Assembly: GCF_003058365.1 (NCBI RefSeq)
Contig: NZ_CP028858.1
Coordinates: 1,426,001-1,490,000 of the forward strand
DNA from: Halococcoides cellulosivorans
GTDB taxonomy: Archaea; Halobacteriota; Halobacteria; Halobacteriales; Haloarculaceae
Length of the DNA stretch: 64,000 nt
Direction: 5' to 3'
Positions 46,939 through 50,727 of the stretch are shown here, piece after piece. Within the stretch, counting starts at the first letter, position 1. Each line of letters begins with the position of its first letter. The position numbers and the translations under genes were made by a program. The notes under the pieces were generated by a model. It made no database searches. It was not told the origin of the DNA and saw nothing but the letters and a program-made list of their open reading frames with translations.

Positions 46939-47502
46939 TCAGAAACGCAGTCCACCGGCGCGCTCGGCAGCCTCGAGCAGATCAGCGATCGAATCGTCCG
47001 GCCCGAGGTCCATCCGGGAGAGCGTCGTCCGGAGCCCCTCGGTCGGATAGGTGATCGGAACTGTCATTTCGAGCAGCAAAATCCCCAGAATCTCGTCGAT
47101 CGGGGTGTCCCGGTCGAGATGGCGAGCGTACCAGAGCACGAGGTTCTCGAAGACCGCCGTCACGTCGTCGGAGGTCATCTCCCGGCGCTCGACACGTTCG
47201 TCGAAGGTGCCAGTGACGTGAAAGCCGTACCGGGCGCTCGTCTCGCCCATGTGCTGTTCGAGAAACTCCTCGACGGCCCCACGGTCGATCACGGGGTCGG
47301 GGGCCGACTCCTCACGGGGTTCCGGGGCTCGTTGGGCCGTCGTCGACGGTTTGGACACGTCGAGGTCACCGATCGGATCGTGCGGGGAGACGACGTATCG
47401 GCCCTCCTCGATCTCTGCGACGTGTTCGTCGTCGGTGATGTCGAGCTCCTCGGGGGCGAGCACACCGCCCTCGTCGTCCTCGTCGTCTGGGCCCCCTGGC
47501 AT
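46939..47502 (-). CDS. Conserved acidic haloarchaeal protein (DUF7500-like)
   Basis: A 187-residue, very acidic cytoplasmic protein. The N-terminal motif LAPEELDITDDEHVAEIEEG, followed by RYVVSP, is a recurring haloarchaeal pattern (DUF7500-like, from memory). A disordered linker leads to a helical C-terminal domain with a hydrophobic stretch (IDEILGILLLEMTV). ATG 47502 (MPGGPDDED) is preferred over a start 30 nt upstream. It lies just downstream of two archaellin genes on the same strand, so a motility link is possible but unproven. Confidence 0.65.
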   Translation of the reverse strand: MPGGPDDEDDEGGVLAPEELDITDDEHVAEIEEGRYVVSPHDPIGDLDVSKPSTTAQRAPEPREESAPDPVIDRGAVEEFLEQHMGETSARYGFHVTGTFDERVERREMTSDDVTAVFENLVLWYARHLDRDTPIDEILGILLLEMTVPITYPTEGLRTTLSRMDLGPDDSIADLLEAAERAGGLRF

Positions 47503-47588: not shown

Positions 47589-48188
47589 TTACAGTTCGAC
47601 GGACTCTTTGCCAGACAGCGAGTCCGGGACGTTCAGCGTGACGGTCGTCTGCCCACCGGAGCGGGTGTTGACCTGCATGGTGACGGTGTCACCGCTGTCG
47701 AGGTTAGAGAGACCCGACTGATTCAGGTCGACCGTGACGATCGCCCGGTCGACCGGGTCGTTCAGCGTCTGATCGTCGAGGATCGATCCGTCGTTGTCAC
47801 GGAGGGTCGTCCAGCTAAACGTCGCGAACGACGGCGAACTGATCTGATCGGAGACCAGTTGCGTACTCCCGCTGGCCGTAATCCACTGGATCGTCGTGTC
47901 GTTGAGGTTCACGTCGGCCGACCCCGGTGCGAGGCGAACGGTCATGTTGGCCTCGTTGATCTGGCCACTATTCACGTTCCCGACCGTACTCACTTCGACG
48001 AGTCGGTTGGTGACCTGCTCGGCGGCCTGCTGGCCACTCTGTTCGGCACTACTCTGGAGGAATCCAGCCGTGTTGATCAATACGCCCGCTGCGATCGCCG
48101 CGACCAGCACCATCGCGATGAACACGATGAGTGTGCCGATCCCGACCTGACCGCGGTCGTCGGTATCCGTTGTGATTCGTTCGAACAT
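47589..48188 (-). CDS. arlB: Archaellin (copy 1)
   Basis: A 199-residue structural subunit of the archaellum filament. A class III signal peptide precedes the prepilin-peptidase site ([10 protein letters not shown]), followed by a hydrophobic N-terminal helix ([19 protein letters not shown]) that packs in the filament core. The rest is a Ser/Thr/Asn/Asp-rich beta domain. About 90% identical to the upstream copy by eye, with an identical C-terminus and differences confined to the middle. It has its own upstream element at 48248. arlCDE-J genes are not adjacent. Confidence 0.93.
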
Positions 48189-48247
48189 GGTTGATTGCCT
48201 GCTTCAGGCGGTACAGATCAGTTACCGCCTAACCCCATTAATACTGA

Positions 48248-48260
48248 CCCCCCTATTATC
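48248..48260 (-). promoter_or_regulatory. Archaellin upstream element (copy 1)
   Basis: GATAATAGGGGGG on the coding strand, 60 nt upstream of the archaellin ATG at 48188. An identical 13-mer lies 64 nt upstream of the second archaellin. It is a likely promoter or regulator-binding element; its AT-rich half could act as a TATA box with a 30-40 nt leader. Confidence 0.6.
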
Positions 48261-48336
48261 AGAGTTGAGTATTACGTTCCATCGGAGAGAACAGCGGTAT
48301 CAGAAGAGAATATCGACCGACGCAGACGGGTTCAGC

Positions 48337-48936
48337 CTACAGTTCGACGGACTCCTTGCCGGACAGCGAGTCCGGGACGTTCAGCGTGACGGTCGTCTGC
48401 CCACCGGAGCGGGTGTTGACCTGTAGCGTCACGGTGTTGCCGCTGTCGAGGTAGTTGAGTTCCGCCTGGCTCAGGTCGATCGTGATGATCGCCCGGTCGA
48501 CGGGGTCGTTGAGGGTGTTGTCGTCGGTGATAGACCCGTCGTTGTCACGGAGCGTCGTCCAGTTGAACGTCGCGAACGACGTCCCGCTGACCTGGTCAGA
48601 GACCAGTTGCGTACTCCCGCTGGCCGTGATCCACTGCATCGTCGTGTCGTTGAGGTTCACGTCGGCCGACCCCGGCGCGAGCCGGACGGTCATGTTGGCT
48701 TCGACGATCTGTGAACCATTCACCTCGCCGACCGTGCTCACTTCGACGAGTCGGTTGGTGACCTGCTCGGCGGCCTGCTGGCCACTCTGTTCGGCACTAC
48801 TCTGGAGGAATCCAGCCGTGTTGATCAGTACGCCCGCTGCGATCGCCGCGACCAGCACCATCGCGATGAACACGATCAGCGTGCCAATCCCGACCTGTCC
48901 GCGGTCGTCCGTATCCGTTGTGATTCGTTCGAACAT
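48337..48936 (-). CDS. arlB: Archaellin (copy 2)
   Basis: A 199-residue archaellin, same length as copy 1 and sharing the processing site and first 69 residues. Differences cluster between residues 70 and 170 (for example GNVNSGQIN against GEVNGSQIV). The final 30 or so residues are identical again. ATG 48936 (MFERITT) is used; the upstream in-frame codons are leader. It lies 148 bp upstream of copy 1 and 200 bp after the next gene. Either both form the filament or one is a variant, as in multi-archaellin haloarchaea. Confidence 0.93.
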
Positions 48937-48999
48937 GGGTACTCGTCCGGACGAACCGGACGTTACCTCAGAGTAGTCGAACATTCTACTTAACCGATT

Positions 49000-49012
49000 C
49001 CCCCCTATTATC
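49000..49012 (-). promoter_or_regulatory. Archaellin upstream element (copy 2)
   Basis: The same GATAATAGGGGGG as at 48248, 64 nt upstream of ATG 48936. The sequences flanking the two elements differ, so the conserved 13-mer stands out from a simple gene duplication. A weaker relative (TTTATGGGGGGG) occurs about 23-34 nt upstream of the small membrane protein gene at 49414. Confidence 0.6.
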
Positions 49013-49135
49013 GATCACGATAACTTATTACCCGAGGTCAGATTGGTTGATCTCAGCAGTGATAGAATGGAACCGAGCCGACACAGACGAGGACAGAACC
49101 GCGAACGACACACGACACGAGCGGCGACACCCTCG

Positions 49136-49414
49136 TCAGGAGCGATACGTGATGAGACTGTAGATGACGAACAGATACCCGAAGGTCGTGAGTCCGCTGT
49201 TGACGAGCAACAGCGATCGCGCCCCTTCGAAGTTCGTGATGAACGCGCTAATCATCGTAGCCGATGCACCGGCGACGGCGAGGGCGAAGCCCAGCGAGAG
49301 GTGGAGCATCGCCTTCCGTGATGTCTCCGCGTACGCGCGCATCGCCATGCCCACCATGGTGAGCCCAGCGACGACGAAAATCAGCGTGAGGACGGCGTAC
49401 AGAAGTTCAATCAT
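49136..49414 (-). CDS. Small three-helix membrane protein (DUF7521-like)
   Basis: A 92-residue protein with three hydrophobic helices (LYAVLTLIFVVAGLTMVGMA; GFALAVAGASATMISAF; LTTFGYLFVIYSLITY). It resembles a small haloarchaeal membrane family, DUF7521-like, an assignment made from memory. Its function is unknown, but it often lies beside a winged-helix regulator, as here: the regulator gene ends 85 bp upstream. A poly-G/AT element close to the start resembles the archaellin element. Confidence 0.7.
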   Translation of the reverse strand: MIELLYAVLTLIFVVAGLTMVGMAMRAYAETSRKAMLHLSLGFALAVAGASATMISAFITNFEGARSLLLVNSGLTTFGYLFVIYSLITYRS

Positions 49415-49499
49415 CGATACATATTCATAGCACTCACCCCCCCATAAATCTCCTCACAAAAATACAGCCAGTGATAATCGGCTCTCAGACGCTGAACGG

Positions 49500-49835
49500 T
49501 CAGCTCTCGGAGAGGGTGCGCCAGGCCTCGTCGAGTTTGTTCGCGACCTCCGAGCGTTCTTCGACGACGATCGACAGCGAGTCGTCGAAGTCGACACGGA
49601 CCTCGTCGACGTTCCGCCGGTACACCTTGATCCGGCGACGGTCCTCGGAGAGCACGCTGTCGTGGAGTTCGAGGAGATTGTGGTCCGTGAGTTCGTCGAT
49701 CCGGCGGTACGTGGTCGCGATCGGAATGTCGAGTTCGTCGCTCAGGTCCTGGGCCGATCGCGGTTCGTCGGTGGCATCAAGGATCTCCGCACTGTACTTG
49801 TTCCCCAGAGTCCGAAGAAGATCGACCGAGGCCAT
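49500..49835 (-). CDS. Winged helix-turn-helix transcriptional regulator (ArsR-like)
   Basis: A 111-residue DNA-binding protein. The winged HTH covers about residues 5-75: LGNKYSAEILDATDEPRSAQ, LSDELDIPIATTYRRIDEL (recognition helix) and a wing (DRRRIKVYRRN). The last 30 residues are an amphipathic helix, probably for dimerisation. Placement between archaellins and a KaiC-like ATPase suggests a motility or adhesion regulator; the target is not visible. The single-domain form fits haloarchaeal ArsR-like proteins. Confidence 0.82.
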   Translation of the reverse strand: MASVDLLRTLGNKYSAEILDATDEPRSAQDLSDELDIPIATTYRRIDELTDHNLLELHDSVLSEDRRRIKVYRRNVDEVRVDFDDSLSIVVEERSEVANKLDEAWRTLSES

Positions 49836-50001
49836 TTGTTATCAATAGTTGAATTTGTGGGGGCTTAAATCTACTGGGAATCAACCGTGATAGCACCCGG
49901 ACAGACGATGTGGCAATATCGGCATCGAGAGGACTCAAATAACCCGAAATCGGCCGTTATCAGGGTTGAATCGGGGCGGAGTTTCGGTGAGCCTGGATCG
50001 T

Positions 50002-50727
50002 TCAGAGCGGGTATTCGTCCTCGTTCATCATCGAGAACGCACTGGCGTTCTTGTGGACCTTGATGCCGCCCTGTTCGATCTCGATCGGGAAGATGTCGGT
50101 ATCGATTTTCTGCTTGCGCATCTTCGCGACCCAGACGTACCGATTGACCCCAGACTCGGTCGGCGTCTGGAGCAAGTAGATGTTGCCGTCGGTCAGGTAG
50201 TTCTCCAGGCCGATATCCGATTTGGGGAACACCGCGCCCTGCTCGTTGGTCATCAACGTGGTCAGCCCGTTCTCTTTGAGGATATCGGTGAATTTGAGGA
50301 GGTAGGTCCGGCGTTCTTTCTCGTCGTCGAAAAAGAGCTCGAACATCGCGAGCGAGTCCAGCACGACACGCTCGAATTCACTGTCCTTGCAGTCGTCGAG
50401 GATCAGATCGAGAGAGGTCGAGAACTCGTTGTCGCTGAGCAGTTCACGCTTGTCGTAGATCCTGATCTGGTCGGAATCGACGTATTCGGCCCAGCGGTCC
50501 AGCCCGATCGACTCGGCGGCCTCGCGCAAGTCCTCCTGGTTTTCCTCGAACGAGAGGAAGATGCCCTTCTCGTCGAACTGGTCGACACCGTTGTAGATGA
50601 ACTGGAGCCCGAAAATCGTCTTCCCGGCCCCGGGGTTTCCGCTGACGAGCGTCGTCGAGTTCTTCACGATGCCCCCGTTGAGAATCGAATCGAGACCGTC
50701 GATACCGGTTTTGGTGAGTTCGATCAT
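50002..50727 (-). CDS. KaiC/RAD55-like RecA-fold ATPase
   Basis: A 241-residue single-domain KaiC-like protein. Walker A is VSGNPGAGKTIFGLQF (about residues 27-42). FLSFEENQEDLREAA follows, and VVLDSLAMFELFF is Walker B. It begins TKTGIDGLDSILNGGI, the normal start for this family (ATG 50727). Single-domain KaiC-like ATPases include ArlH, which gates archaellum assembly, and signal-transduction proteins. The closeness to archaellin genes makes a motility role plausible, but other arl genes are absent. Confidence 0.82.
   Translation of the reverse strand: MIELTKTGIDGLDSILNGGIVKNSTTLVSGNPGAGKTIFGLQFIYNGVDQFDEKGIFLSFEENQEDLREAAESIGLDRWAEYVDSDQIRIYDKRELLSDNEFSTSLDLILDDCKDSEFERVVLDSLAMFELFFDDEKERRTYLLKFTDILKENGLTTLMTNEQGAVFPKSDIGLENYLTDGNIYLLQTPTESGVNRYVWVAKMRKQKIDTDIFPIEIEQGGIKVHKNASAFSMMNEDEYPL

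Follow-up and report, generated by a model that had tools for sequence, protein, structure and literature searches.

A CsmR-type promoter module at the tandem archaellin genes of Halococcoides cellulosivorans, with predicted leader hairpins and a candidate small RNA

Introduction

In Haloferax volcanii, the gene for the small winged-helix protein CsmR (HVO_1209) lies upstream of the archaellin genes arlA1 and arlA2 (PLoS Genetics, 12 June 2026; PMC13286277). The CsmR motif from chromatin immunoprecipitation sequencing (ChIP-seq), TATCA(N4)TGATA, was found in 50 of 65 peaks, within ~34 bp, next to the transcription factor B recognition element (BRE) and the TATA box, including archaellum (arl) and chemotaxis promoters; the KaiC-like protein CirA acts in the same network (PMC13286277). 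A winged-helix archaellum regulator is likewise known from Methanococcus maripaludis and Pyrococcus furiosus: EarA, which acts on archaellin promoters at the BRE or upstream of it (PMC5512572). Here we analysed a stretch of 64,000 nucleotides of the Halococcoides cellulosivorans genome (NZ_CP028858.1, positions 1,426,001 to 1,490,000; hereafter the window, whose own numbering is used below), in which two tandem archaellin genes are each preceded by the same 13-bp element, GATAATAGGGGGG, and are accompanied by a gene for a winged-helix protein.

The 13-mer makes up only part of the element, namely the right half-site and the G-tract of a 38-bp promoter module, and the two promoters together with the regulator gene are a new example of the published CsmR-type system. 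Judging from the sequence and by analogy with Haloferax, we consider it very probable that the 13-mer belongs to a CsmR-type archaellin promoter controlled by the neighbouring winged-helix protein. The locus resembles the CsmR system in the winged-helix gene beside the archaellins, the dyad upstream of BRE/TATA, the archaellum and chemotaxis targets, the KaiC-like partner and the structural match to 2P4W. Unlike the Haloferax system, it has two near-identical archaellins with separate promoters that carry a G-tract; the KaiC-like and regulator genes are adjacent on the same strand, and a DUF7521 gene lies between the regulator and the archaellins; the che genes are located elsewhere, and the dyad of gene 2 has an inner G/C variant. 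Several archaellin genes also occur in Haloarcula, a haloarchaeon of the same family, as ecoparalogues (PMC6528647); those are strongly diverged, unlike the homogenised pair described here.

Results and Discussion

The shared 13-mer is part of a family-wide promoter module

Both archaellin genes are on the minus strand and encode 199 residues: gene 1 at 47589..48188 (ATG at the 48188 end; PF01917, E 2.9e-35) and gene 2 at 48337..48936 (ATG at the 48936 end; PF01917, E 1.4e-34). They reach 122 and 120 bits against the Pfam archaellin cut-off of 29.5, and 43 bits to the archaellin N-terminal domain TIGR02537. The 13-mer is exact on the minus strand at 48260..48248, 60 nt before the ATG of gene 1, and at 49012..49000, 64 nt before that of gene 2, just as a preliminary description of the window, made from the sequence alone, had placed it. 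The genome-wide search proposed there confined the 13-mer to these two promoters in the 2,723,120-bp genome, even with one mismatch allowed, and the reversed-pattern control over the whole genome gave 0 matches. The two upstream regions, taken at 150 bp each, share no longer string; a common string of at least 13 nt occurred in 2 of 5,000 shuffles. By itself the 13-mer was rejected as a probe, giving scattered matches in 60 of 148 family genomes with one mismatch; the full module is needed.

A 38-bp ungapped motif was seeded on the window copy and refined iteratively over the regions upstream of 98 Haloarculaceae archaellin genes. It scored at least 20 in 85 of the 98 regions, with rigid spacing, whereas the maximum in the shuffled control was 12.4. 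The consensus reads GTTWTCA-N5-GATAATtnGGGGGgnagnn-TTATTA (in short form GTTWTCA-N5-GATAATtnGGGgg...TTATTA), and the TATA-like box opens with a T 19 nt downstream of the G of GATAA, in the motif as a whole and in either window gene. Half-site spacing in the family motif is that of the CsmR motif TATCA(N4)TGATA, and its position upstream of the TATA box agrees as well.

Within the window, the two archaellin modules are the best-scoring sites of the position weight matrix (PWM), at 29.3 and 28.6, followed by a site at the DUF7521 gene (13.9), one upstream of the winged-helix gene (7.8) and the next at 3.6. The best is the gene 1 module, ATACTCAACTCTGATAATAGGGGGGTCAGTATTAATGG (48235..48272, minus strand), with a degenerate left half-site ACTCA, an intact right half-site TGATA, the G-tract and a TATA-like TTAATG from 48241. 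Second is the gene 2 module, GTTATCGTGATCGATAATAGGGGGGAATCGGTTAAGTA (48987..49024, minus strand), with a perfect dyad TTATCG-TGAT-CGATAA, the G-tract and a TATA-like TTAAGT from 48993. The window dyads are thus variants of the CsmR site, gene 2 having the symmetric form TATCG-N4-CGATA and gene 1 a good right half only.

A conserved winged-helix protein accompanies the module

The proposed CsmR orthologue is encoded at 49500..49835 on the minus strand. Like CsmR, it is a winged-helix protein of ~13 kDa encoded beside archaellin genes (111 residues; HTH_20, E 2.4e-11). Its AlphaFold2 (AF2) model has a mean predicted local distance difference test (pLDDT) value of 71.5, with residues 21–60 at ~85–92 and a weak C-terminal part. 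The top match of this model in the PDB is Phr of P. furiosus (2P4W; E 3.7e-4, template modelling score 0.62), the same structural match that the CsmR authors report (PMC13286277); a sequence search of the PDB with the winged-helix profile gave no matches.

The order KaiC-like gene, winged-helix gene, DUF7521 gene, one to three archaellins and DUF7500 gene is kept in 9 of 9 Haloarculaceae contexts, across which the winged-helix protein is 82–87% identical. In the window, all of these genes are on the minus strand: the KaiC-like ATPase, a proposed CirA counterpart that adjoins the winged-helix gene in 9 of 9 relative contexts, at 50002..50727 (PF06745, E 2.2e-51); the DUF7521 gene at 49136..49414 (92 residues; PF24365, E 3.8e-8; synteny); and the DUF7500 gene downstream of the archaellins at 46939..47502 (PF24332, E 1.9e-61; synteny). 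The distance from the winged-helix gene to the archaellins is 0.2–0.9 kb in three other families and ~11 kb in a fourth.

Presence of the motif tracks a close orthologue of this protein among the 31 relatives whose archaellin upstream regions were read. A close orthologue (E 4e-33 or better) is present in all 21 motif-bearing genomes, and 9 of the 10 genomes without the motif have only remote winged-helix matches (E 3e-16 or worse); genomes lacking both represent four genera (g5, g6, g11, g15). Because the genomes are related, these counts are not 31 independent cases. The suggestion in the preliminary description that the 13-mer is a site for the nearby winged-helix protein gains support from the CsmR half-sites and spacing and from the conservation of the gene beside archaellins, and the neighbouring CsmR-type protein is, by analogy, the most likely reader of the site.

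Predicted sites extend to chemotaxis and motor genes

A sequence-only covariance model of the 38-bp module served as the search model for further sites. At E 10 or better, it gave six matches in the H. cellulosivorans genome: both archaellins, a chemoreceptor-type gene, the cheW/cheB intergenic region, a secretion-type ATPase gene (weak) and a non-coding site. The secretion-type ATPase gene (L200) was rejected as a motility target, being below the archaellum ATPase cut-off, and the arl motor operon lies elsewhere. This operon has its own dyad, TATCAATACTGATT, with one mismatch, ~46 bp before its first ATG, where the chance expectation is 0.02 in 20 kb. The cheA/cheB/cheW cluster (L252:10769-14357) lies ~0.37 Mb from the archaellin block and retains the intergenic CsmR-type dyad; in several relatives, a divergent cheB/cheW pair stands immediately upstream of the KaiC-like gene.

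The 40 strongest matches in ten relatives (E <0.0085) comprised 12 archaellin, 7 DUF7521, 8 cheY, 3 cheW, 6 chemoreceptor and 3 response-regulator sites and 1 non-coding site. Predicted CsmR-type sites thus accompany the arl operon, a chemoreceptor gene and the cheW/cheB region of the genome itself, and cheY, cheW and chemoreceptor genes of relatives. The idea of a motility-specific promoter box, put forward before this analysis, accords with the variants at fixed spacing in the family archaellin promoters and with the 36 of 40 matches that precede motility, chemotaxis or DUF7521 genes, some of the 40 having been used to train the promoter model. The training set took in archaellin, DUF7521, cheY and cheW sites of some genomes but not the chemoreceptor, response-regulator and non-coding sites. 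The response-regulator genes with upstream matches, in three relatives (L233, L226, L235), belong to no obvious known motility operon. In one relative (G100), a module match precedes an FtsZ/CetZ-like tubulin gene (L251:188-1350; 81 bits to TIGR00065), which would suit the part of the CsmR network concerned with cell shape.

Around the regulator gene, a diverged promoter module, ATTATCACTGGCTGTATTTTTGTGAGGAGATTTATGGG, precedes the DUF7521 gene (49441..49478, minus strand; the third-best PWM score in the window), and relatives have strong sites at the equivalent place, with scores of 24–31. Upstream of the winged-helix gene lie a candidate CsmR dyad with one mismatch, TATCACGGTTGATT (49879..49892, minus strand), and a second, weak module found with the PWM (49936-49973). 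Another dyad with one mismatch, TCTCAGCAGTGATA, separates archaellin 2 from the DUF7521 gene (49051..49064, plus strand). Eight of the nine dyads with at most two mismatches fall within 48.16–49.97 kb, the expectation for the whole window being 3.1; two of the eight are upstream of the winged-helix gene and give a weak hint of autoregulation.

Probable control by a CsmR-type regulator and its alternatives

The sequences, their conservation and spacing, the specificity of the module, the synteny and the co-absence with the regulator are direct observations. A dimer of the neighbouring winged-helix protein would bind TTATC(A/G)-N4-(T/C)GATAA just upstream of BRE/TATA and might thereby control the recruitment of transcription factor B (TFB) and the TATA-binding protein at both archaellins, the DUF7521 gene and the chemotaxis genes; the arl motor operon is a probable further target. 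We infer the binding, the dimer and the direction of regulation by homology to Haloferax, where deletion of csmR raises archaellum transcripts yet abolishes motility, so that either activation or repression is possible (PMC13286277).

This ambiguity counts against the proposed control, as do several further points. Both window copies depart from the consensus, gene 1 in its left half ACTCA and gene 2 in having inner G/C instead of A/T. One motif-negative genome (G146) has a close winged-helix orthologue. Orthology of the 111-residue protein to HVO_1209 rests on synteny and fold, several of the cheY, cheW and DUF7521 sites had trained the search model, and the window sites at the DUF7521 and winged-helix genes are weak.

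The 13-mer might instead be leftover homology from a duplication of an archaellin gene with its promoter and play no regulatory role. An identical tract is expected after recent duplication or conversion, and the genes are tandem paralogues with 90% identity. Yet the 13-mer is the only long tract common to the two upstream regions, and the same positions are kept at fixed spacing in many genera with otherwise unrelated upstream sequence, which leaves this explanation only a minute chance. It is also very unlikely, though slightly less so, that the element is core promoter only, a BRE/TATA-proximal sequence of any strong haloarchaeal promoter that includes no regulator site. Such a view would suit the place of the 13-mer directly upstream of a TATA-like box and the TATA information within the module, but of the only six matches that the 38-bp model has in the genome, four are at genes for motility or chemotaxis; the dyad is upstream of the BRE position, its presence follows that of the CsmR orthologue, and the same dyad has ChIP evidence in Haloferax (PMC13286277). 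Recognition by a different regulator, a winged-helix paralogue or an alternative TFB, appears just as improbable as a bare core promoter. With the winged-helix query, two further matches in the genome reach E 1e-8 or better, and several TFBs exist in haloarchaea; however, only the neighbouring protein is tightly linked to the motif and absent with it, and it is CsmR that has the ChIP motif in Haloferax (PMC13286277).

Judged from sequence, the CsmR promoter code, experimentally known from a single species, reaches with its geometry fixed into a different family of haloarchaea, so that archaellum regulons can be read directly from genomes. What is new here is the family-wide promoter geometry and two RNA leads, one being the structured leader of the archaellin genes and the other a small RNA that may be linked to motility; the analysis also yields predicted transcription starts that are open to experiment.

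Concerted evolution of the archaellin pair

The preliminary description regarded the ends of the two archaellins as identical. This holds for the protein, in which identity is complete at residues 1–70 and 172–199, but not for the DNA, which has 8 synonymous codon differences in 1–70 and 2 in 172–199, plus the stop codon. The synonymous divergence (dS) is 0.17 for residues 1–70, 0.41 for 71–171 and 0.09 for 172–199, and the ratio of nonsynonymous to synonymous divergence (dN/dS) in the middle region is 0.32. Six species that have a tandem pair of archaellins were compared, and in every one the copies pair within the species, with local supports of 0.94–1.0. Because the copies are nearest to each other although the block is syntenic between genera, the comparison favours concerted evolution over repeated duplication. 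Gene conversion and selection had both been offered to account for the pair: the within-species pairing speaks for the former, whereas positive selection between the paralogues is rejected on average by the middle dN/dS, the divergence there suggesting relaxed constraint or less conversion. Gene conversion would keep the gene bodies alike, and promoter sequence beyond the constrained element would be left to drift.

No third full-length archaellin was found in the complete genome (one contig) beyond the window pair. The archaellin query for related loci returned one relative only, with a close archaellin in Halorhabdus amylolytica.

Predicted leaders may begin with hairpins

A TA dinucleotide occurs at +27/+28 from the TATA-like box in ~74% of sites (weighted) and in at most 9% at other offsets from 20 to 43, and it probably marks the expected transcription start. 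Counted from the first T of the TATA box, transcription would begin ~28 nt downstream, near 48213 and 48965 as predicted from spacing, and yield a short leader that opens with a hairpin. The predicted leader of gene 1 is 25 nt (48189..48213, minus strand; TA at +28 from TATA TTA), with the hairpin GCCTG-AAG-CAGGC at 48209..48197; that of gene 2 is 29 nt (48937..48965, minus strand; TA at +28 from TATA TTA), with the hairpin CGTCCGG-TTCGT-CCGGACG at 48962..48944 and a fold of -16.7 kcal/mol (z -2.9). An in-frame ATG at 48984 would lengthen archaellin 2 to 215 residues (48937-48984); its use is unlikely because it lies upstream of the predicted start at 48965, and annotating 215 residues would probably be an error.

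In most archaellin leaders, the sequence immediately behind the predicted start can fold into a hairpin, and 47 non-redundant leaders have a mean z of -1.8 against dinucleotide shuffles. A strong 5-bp stem was found in 87% of leaders compared with 31% of mononucleotide shuffles and 54% of random 36-mers from the GC-rich window, so that base composition explains part of the excess. The stems vary (GGGTC/GACCC, GCCTG/CAGGC, GTCTG/CAGAC, GTCCG/CGGGC) and differ between the two window genes. A covariation test with fixed-offset arms failed, as the stem start shifts by ~2 nt between clades, and energy and stem tests were used. The leaders of cheY and chemoreceptor targets are short or absent. In H. 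volcanii, 72% of transcripts are leaderless and structured leaders are regarded as atypical (Babski et al., PMC4983044); a text search of the CsmR paper found no mention of a leader hairpin (PMC13286277), and an Rfam search of the archaellin region gave no matches. The archaellin leader hairpin is, in our view, a moderately supported prediction.

A candidate C-rich small RNA behind the same type of promoter

The non-coding match of the promoter model in the H. cellulosivorans genome (~2,712,540) points to a candidate small RNA gene on the minus strand at G000:C1 ~2,712,450-2,712,570 (L286:4950-5070). It has a full module, a hairpin GTGGCATCGG-TCAGC-CCGGTGCCAT near the predicted start, the tail CCCCCCCCACCCCCCCACCCCCCACCCC and a T-run. 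Its candidate family combines a GGCACC/GGTGCC hairpin, placed at the predicted start, with a C-rich tail behind it, CCCCCACCCCCCACCCCC, and occurs once in this genome and in five copies in four relatives (G003 twice, G071, G073 and G059; L281-L285), covering 4 genera. The family may be wider, because all copies were found through the promoter model; automatic alignment was poor owing to the repetitive tail. Neighbourhoods are of two kinds, one with a serB-like gene (H. cellulosivorans and G003) and the other with sdhA and/or an acyl-CoA dehydrogenase block (the second copy of G003, G059, G071 and G073). Rfam had no match to the RNA of H. cellulosivorans and, in the relatives, matched only an adjacent tRNA and one sub-threshold place away from the RNA. 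A search of the available literature found no paper on the C-rich RNA, and a plasmid search with it gave no relevant match. The leader hairpin and the C-rich small-RNA family are apparently undescribed.

As a tentative proposal, to which we give somewhat less than an even chance, the CsmR-type regulon of Haloarculaceae might include an undescribed RNA layer composed of hairpin-led archaellin mRNAs and a small RNA gene driven by a CsmR-type promoter. The archaellin leader stem would change between genera and between the window paralogues with its pairing kept, in a setting where most transcripts are leaderless, and the C-rich small RNA could have G-rich motility transcripts as its targets in trans. 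The C-rich pattern also had four viral-contig matches. The only 10-nt complement to the C-rich tail in the window is a G-run, GGGGGGGTGA (49435-49444), between the TATA-like box and the start codon of the DUF7521 gene, a complementarity that may have arisen by chance.
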